Shown here: one piece after another, positions 56,293 to 56,997 of the stretch
Numbering within the stretch: the stretch's first letter is position 1
Layout of the letters: each line of letters begins with the position of its first letter
DNA from: SAR202 cluster bacterium
GTDB taxonomy: Bacteria; Chloroflexota; Dehalococcoidia; Lucifugimonadales; UBA2962
Assembly: GCA_022447925.1 (NCBI GenBank)
Contig: JAKUTS010000009.1
Location: forward strand, 1 to 64,000
Reading direction: 5' to 3'
Length of the DNA stretch: 64,000 nt
Translations under genes and position numbers: made by a program
The notes under the pieces: model-generated
What the model was told of the DNA's origin: nothing
The model's database searches: none
What the model saw: only the letters and a program-made list of their open reading frames with translations

Positions 56293-56997
56293 TTACCTTC
56301 CTTTCTCAAGCTGGACATCTTGCCATGTATAGTCTACTTTGTCTTTATAAAAACGATCTGGATTTTCAATTGCCCATATCTGTTTTCTTATGATGTAGTT
56401 ATTAGGATCAATCTCTATAGCTTTACGCCAAAGTTTTATGGCCTCATCTGTTTTGTTCGAGTTAAATAATTGTTGGCCAGATACAAATAGTTCATTTGCT
56501 TTTCGATGAGTTTCTTGTTCAAATTTCTCGGGTTGGGAGCTTTTGAAATCCTTTCCGGATACCCAATTTTCCACTAAGGATCTTTTAACCGGTTCCCTTA
56601 TATTAAATGTACCTAATTCGATGAAGTCTACATTTCCATCTGAGCCTATTAAATAAACATTTGGTACAGCTTTAAATCCATATAATTTACCGAGCTGATT
56701 ACTCTGGTCCACAACAGTAGTAAGCGTGGCATGAGCTTTCTCTAGATAAAATTTCGGTTTTTCAACTCCCTGCACATCCATCGCTACCGTGATTATCTTT
56801 ACATTAGTTGAGTTATTTTCAGAAACATCTTGCCATACAGGCAATTGAGCTCTACATGCTCACCAAGATGCCCAAAAGAACAAAGCAATTTTTTGCCCAG
56901 AATAATCGGAAAGCTGTATATCTTCTCCAGCAACCGAAGGTAAGCAGAAGTTAGGTGCCAGGTCTCCAACTTTTACGTAGCCAGTTTGTTCGGCCAT
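56293..56997 (-). CDS. Thioredoxin-like TlpA/ResA-family candidate selenoprotein (in-frame UGA) with TPR tail
   Basis: One frame runs from the ATG at 56997 (AAGGA seven bases upstream) to a stop at 56293, interrupted only by TGA at codon 46 (56862-56860). Before it comes KVGDLAPNFCLP and IALFFWASW; after it ACRAQLPVWQ, then a thioredoxin core (VKIITVAMDV, YGFKAVPNVYLIG) and a C-terminal TPR-like region (TDEAIKLWRKAIEIDPNN). In TlpA/ResA proteins the WASW segment is followed by the active-site Cys, which is exactly where UGA falls. The result would be W-U-A-C-R, a U-x-C rather than C-x-x-C site. A hairpin with bacterial SECIS geometry lies 20 bases downstream. No signal peptide is seen. If UGA is not decoded, the gene is broken. 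Confidence 0.75.
56830..56862 (-). promoter_or_regulatory. Bacterial SECIS-like hairpin after the in-frame UGA
   Basis: In the mRNA, UUGCC (56844-56840) pairs with GGCAA (56834-56830), giving a 5-bp stem and a 5-base loop UGUAU. The UGA is at 56862-56860, so 20 bases separate it from the loop, and a G is the second loop base. Both values fit published bacterial SECIS rules (16-37 bases; G among the first two loop bases). A short UGAGC/GCUCA pairing also includes the UGA. Confidence 0.55.

Follow-up and report, generated by a model that had tools for sequence, protein, structure and literature searches.

The gene and its in-frame TGA codon

The window, i.e., the whole 64-kb stretch of DNA analyzed here, harbors on its minus strand a candidate selenoprotein gene of 234 codons (56997-56293) that ends in a TAA stop codon (56295-56293). 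A ribosome-binding-like sequence, AAAGGA (57010-57005, minus strand), lies 7 nt upstream of the ATG at 56997. Translation of the minus strand from 56997 to 56293 revealed a single in-frame TGA, codon 46 (56862-56860), in the context FFWASW-U-ACRAQLP. The TGA occupies the place of the first (nucleophilic) Cys and would encode selenocysteine (Sec); codon 48 (TGT, 56856-56854, minus strand) encodes the Cys that would be the partner of Sec in a U-A-C motif. The standard list of open reading frames contains only the second half of the gene (56293-56844), which starts past the catalytic site.

The TlpA/ResA-fold domain covers residues ~8-150 and is followed by a TPR-like helical C-terminal tail (~160-231), in which the Pfam search returned TPR matches. 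The best Pfam match of the read-through protein is PF00578 AhpC-TSA (1.8e-17, residues 10-125), and the first 44 residues alone already match AhpC-TSA (8.5e-08). Since these matches span both the first half and the read-through protein, the two halves around the TGA form one domain. In a genome of the same genus, the gene (L012) keeps the internal TGA and also uses TGA as its terminal stop. Comparisons within the genus gave a dN/dS of ~0.15 past the TGA and of 0.3-0.4 in the short part before it, dN being well below dS on both sides, which indicates that the frame past the TGA is translated and selected. These results agree with a preliminary description of the locus, which had reported a single in-frame TGA in a 234-residue thioredoxin-like protein with two seemingly conserved halves, an ATG and ribosome-binding site for the first half and a TPR-like tail, and had expected gene callers to see the second half only. 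An Rfam scan of the 64-kb window returned nothing at gathering thresholds.

A short-chain dehydrogenase (SDR)-like gene (56284-55493, minus strand) starts 8 nt past the stop codon of the candidate gene. SDR-type genes of one sequence cluster are found at the same downstream place in 7 loci, the one in the window and 6 others, from several Chloroflexota genera, and the downstream SDR is a possible co-transcribed partner. Upstream lies an EamA-type membrane transporter-like gene (57966-57037, minus strand), identified by eye from its translation; its synteny is kept within the genus and it is probably functionally unrelated. Beyond the genus, the gene context contains no redox operon, and the downstream SDR is the sole recurrent neighbor. 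This single neighbor is too little for assigning a pathway.

Conservation of the TGA codon and of a downstream hairpin

A scan of GTDB genomes and a joint analysis yielded a homologue set in which 70 distinct sequences have UGA and 4 have Cys. TGA is kept at codon 46 in all 70 UGA sequences, which come from independent assemblies and at least 7 phyla. Within the order, it is retained in all 4 genomes of the same genus and in some 20 further genomes. This conservation extends across phyla down to ~30% protein identity. The named hosts in the tree comprise SAR202/Dehalococcoidia, Anaerolineae, other Chloroflexota, Poribacteria, Latescibacterota, Acidobacteriota, Armatimonadota, Rubrobacter and halophilic Bacillota, and the gene in the window falls within a fully supported clade of SAR202-type sequences. 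Invariant columns in alignment A1 include W42, S44, W45, the Sec site, C48, R49, Q51, L52, P53, W55 and Q56.

At the place of Sec, the Cys homologues L029, L119, L120, L125 and L160 carry C-x-C. L029, a Cys homologue of the same order, has W-C-G-C-R-N-Q-L-P, and W-C-S-C-R is found in L160, a Cys homologue of the long form. Because these two read C-x-C, the lack of one residue in comparison to a C-x-x-C site characterizes the family and does not reflect damage. The middle residue of U-x-C is A in the protein of the window and A, G, V, M, N, K, T, S, D, R, Q or I elsewhere.

Several sequences deviate from this pattern. L119, L120 and L125 form a separate C-x-C branch (W-V-S-W-C-[IV]-C-R-D-Q-L-P-L-L) without the Trp and the SECIS stem, representing either an outgroup or an old Cys branch of the family. 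Close to the acidobacterial UGA forms, L110 and L112 carry Ser or Glu instead of Sec and keep most of the site; here the catalytic residue has been lost without loss of the gene. A degenerate copy in genome G042 (L032:824-1510) contains TAA and extra TGA codons, also around the active site, and reflects a decaying gene or a poor assembly. A contig in a MAG named Marinimicrobia (L059) contains a copy that shares 74% identity with the gene in the window, probably through misbinning or recent transfer. Among other weak UGA-bearing matches in relatives (L131-L142), a long-form fragment in L142 was the only clear case that a motif filter recovered, the remaining stretches looking like chance open frames.

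Downstream of the TGA, a bacterial SECIS core is predicted at 56844-56830 (minus strand), with a stem UUGCC/GGCAA, a loop UGUAU and 20 nt between UGA and loop. The hairpin lies 18-32 nt from the U of UGA; the general form is YUGCC-NGKNU-GGCAR, represented in the window by UUGCC-UGUAU-GGCAA. With a 5-bp stem, a 5-nt loop and 20 nt spacing it fits the published bSECIS model (PMC13188914), and the second loop base is G in 69 of the 70 UGA genes. For a 39-nt stretch containing the hairpin of the window, the minimum free energy was -12.2, and the fold of this gene's own sequence was only moderately better than that of shuffled sequences (z -1.96).

The stem overlaps codons L52-P53 and W55-Q56, so that the residues LP.WQ already dictate most of its bases and only two pairs with synonymous positions test the RNA. 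At the first of these codons, Leu52, all 70 UGA genes use YTG, G-ending codons making up only 47% of all Leu codons across these genes (log10 P = -27.5 given their own codon usage). The synonymous closing pair between Leu52 base 1 and Gln56 base 3 is standard in 70/70 genes (46 CG, 20 TA, 4 TG) against 56.8 expected, with a maximum of 68 in 20,000 simulations. In an independent count over 30 diverse sequences, 150/150 cells were paired with 11 double changes, and 0/500 shuffles reached the covariation score; both the codon-usage simulations and the shuffle tests treat the sequences as independent. After correction for phylogeny, 5 independent changes remained on well-supported branches, 3-5 of them concordant and 0 discordant, in a sign test that is underpowered (median p 0.125). 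Taken together, these comparisons show that UGA is kept as a sense position at codon 46 and that the hairpin 18-32 nt downstream of it is selected. In agreement with the G[G/U] loop rule, nearly all UGA members have Val or Gly as residue 54, and the 4 Cys members have Ala or Leu there, which suggests that the SECIS element also shapes the protein at this residue.

Sec machinery in UGA-form and Cys-form genomes

A single tRNA-Sec in the host genome (1.58 Mb, 87% complete) scored above the Rfam cut-off, at 60.9 bits, and ARAGORN likewise called it as SeC with the anticodon tca (UCA). selA (531 bits), selB (326 bits) and selD (356 bits) each exceeded the curated cut-off. The host selD gene (L052:1501-2421, contig C12) has an in-frame TGA of its own within the motif RLTQLTSSAGUAAKF, AGUAAK being the SelD active-site motif and the usual place of Sec in SelD. 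The host genome therefore holds at least two selenoprotein genes, selD being one of them.

Genomes with a Cys form serve as natural controls. The host of L029 (G034, 97% complete) encodes the Cys form, whose Leu52 codon is CTC and whose hairpin has a broken stem pair; selA, tRNA-Sec and selB gave no match in this genome. The host of L160 (G101, 96% complete) encodes the long Cys form, again with a broken stem pair, and no selB was found in it. Among 60 relatives, the UGA-form genomes have selA or tRNA-Sec, except for one (G002, 79% complete), which has selB. In another UGA-form genome (G188, 69% complete) selB was not detected, which may be due to incompleteness. The Sec and Cys forms in related genomes, together with the corresponding loss of machinery and SECIS element, amount to a natural experiment on the reasons for retaining selenium.

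In principle, the TGA could be a plain stop, left by a nonsense mutation in a pseudogene or introduced by a sequencing error, and a decayed copy with multiple stops does exist in one relative (L032 in G042). This explanation has a negligible probability, as 70 distinct sequences of independent assemblies and phyla share this TGA, purifying selection continues past it, the hairpin is selected and the Sec machinery is present. A plain nonsense mutation is ruled out by the conserved codon together with the selected downstream frame. Equally improbable is a reassignment of UGA in this lineage, e.g., to Trp or Cys, or a read-through without Sec: UGA is clearly sense at codon 46, but the L012 copy has TGA as its ordinary terminal stop, Cys is the residue that aligns with the site, the genome has tRNA-Sec, SelA, SelB and SelD, and neither of the two checked Cys-form genomes has SelB.

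We therefore conclude with high confidence that the gene in the window encodes a selenoprotein with Sec at the UGA codon 46. With SECIS covariation and a paired loss of the machinery, the evidence is unusually complete for a prediction. Further points of the preliminary description were upheld as well. It had placed the UGA at the nucleophilic Cys of a TlpA/ResA-like site, where the Cys homologues indeed carry Cys, and had read U-x-C as one residue shorter than C-x-x-C, as L029 and L160 bear out with their C-x-C. It had considered reassignment unlikely with UGA a normal stop elsewhere, in accordance with the terminal TGA of L012. The search it had advised for Sec machinery found tRNA-Sec, selA, selB and selD in the host genome, and that for homologues with U or Cys at residue 46 found the 70 UGA sequences, the 4 Cys sequences and L160. 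Its concern that homologues might be mere nonsense copies did not materialize, the TGA being conserved across phyla and the frame selected.

Fold, known relatives and proposed chemistry

An AlphaFold2 model of the protein (pLDDT 90.6, pTM 0.89) matched DsbE/ResA-type structures best, with Z scores of 16.8 for 3gl3, 16.5 for 4nmu and 16.1 for ResA 1st9 over 135 residues. DsbE/ResA-type PDB chains overall gave Z 16-17 over ~137 residues, followed by BCP/Prx folds, and the sequence profiles agree with the structure matches on a TlpA/ResA-type domain. With ResA, TlpA and DsbE the protein shares the fold, the WASW before the site and a Pro at the expected cis-Pro position. It differs from them in having Sec for Cys, one residue deleted (U-x-C in place of the C-x-x-C active site) and an extra TPR-like tail. 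It also differs in its N-terminus MAEQTGYVKVGDLAPNF, which by eye shows no hydrophobic segment and no evident signal peptide or membrane anchor. The protein belongs to the same superfamily as the peroxiredoxins (PrxQ/BCP, AhpC) and shares PF00578 with them, but lacks their PxxxTxxC peroxidatic motif. It is probably a cytosolic, Sec-dependent thiol oxidoreductase with a TlpA/ResA fold.

Related selenoproteins have been catalogued before. Zhang and Gladyshev described in 2008 a kind termed 'Prx-like (UGC-containing)' with PF00578 and 46 Sec sequences in Global Ocean Sampling data (PMC2398784). It is retained in a 2022 catalogue (PMC9312934) and in one of 2026, there under the name 'UGC-containing TlpA disulfide reductase family protein' (cd02966) and with the representative MDE0950781.1 (PMC13188914). 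Like these proteins, which occur in ocean metagenomes, that of the window combines a PF00578/cd02966 thioredoxin-fold domain with Sec first and Cys two residues on; it reads U-A-C, position x being variable in the family. This comparison covers the published description of the family, whose catalogued representatives are MDE0950781.1 and MBL6689828.1. The NCBIfam model NF041054 (WAxxUGC_long, ResA-like WAxxUGC motif-containing protein) describes a longer sister form, likewise with the WASW-U-x-CR site and with a matching Trx domain and C-terminal tail. Against this model, the protein of the window scored 131.4 bits, below the cut-off of 300, in two separate partial stretches and without the ~80-residue N-terminal part, and it reads QLP where the long forms seen here read DLP. 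The literature search found no paper linking selenoproteins with SAR202 and none for WAxxUGC. The gene is thus a new, shorter member of a known, functionally uncharacterized selenoprotein kind.

According to established bacterial Sec biology, SelB carrying Sec-tRNA-Sec would bind the SECIS hairpin and insert Sec at the UGA. Sec46 sits at the N-terminal end of the first active-site helix, from where its selenolate would then probably attack a disulfide, a sulfenic acid or a peroxide-type substrate. Cys48, two residues on, would resolve the intermediate, giving an Se-S bond that spans one residue and would be re-reduced by a cellular thiol system. The TPR-like tail probably serves substrate or partner binding. 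The U-x-C site poses a testable question, namely in what way a one-residue Se-S loop tunes the redox chemistry.

As to the activity itself, we give a reductase of the disulfide or sulfenic-acid type about an even chance. An oxidase- or isomerase-like (PDI-like) activity of the Sec-containing protein would follow from C-x-C being more oxidizing than the C-x-x-C of thioredoxin, but appears rather unlikely. Sec at an attacking position usually serves reduction reactions, and a protein with no evident signal peptide probably resides in the reducing cytosol. Reported C-x-C potentials, which speak for such an activity, range from -130 to -200 mV, i.e., -167 mV for the CGC tripeptide, -200 mV for a thioredoxin CGC mutant, -130 mV for YphP and -139 mV for CsgC (PMC3173608). 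Somewhat more probable, yet still tentative, is that the selenoprotein physiologically reduces peroxides as a Prx-like selenoperoxidase. PF00578 AhpC-TSA as the best Pfam match, the good alignment of BCP/PrxQ/Prx structures (Z 14-15.9) and the name Prx-like given to the UGC kind (PMC2398784, PMC9312934) argue for this activity. Against it, the peroxidatic P-x-x-x-T/S-x-x-C motif is absent from the protein, whose site reads ALFFWASWUACR, with W-A-S-W-U-x-C-R as in TlpA/ResA, and the top structural matches are of the ResA/DsbE type.

The short SAR202-type branch might constitute a distinct, not separately described subfamily, a proposal we regard as speculative. It would be defined by Sec-x-Cys and a conserved TPR-like tail and comprise a dedicated cytosolic redox enzyme with a partner of its own, perhaps the adjacent SDR. 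Not only the protein but also the SECIS element would then hold the Leu and Gln codons and residue 54 (Val/Gly). Standard gene calling, which starts past the catalytic residue, can overlook the enzyme in a group of ocean bacteria.

Throughout the class the long form is widespread, and it also occurs with UGA and the same SECIS hairpin. Two sequences, L034 and L035, fit NF041054 far better than the protein encoded in the window, at 270 and 251 bits for the given part. Tandem pairs of UGA-bearing long WAxxUGC copies, ~1 kb apart, are present in several genomes of one family (f73; L169, L171-L174).
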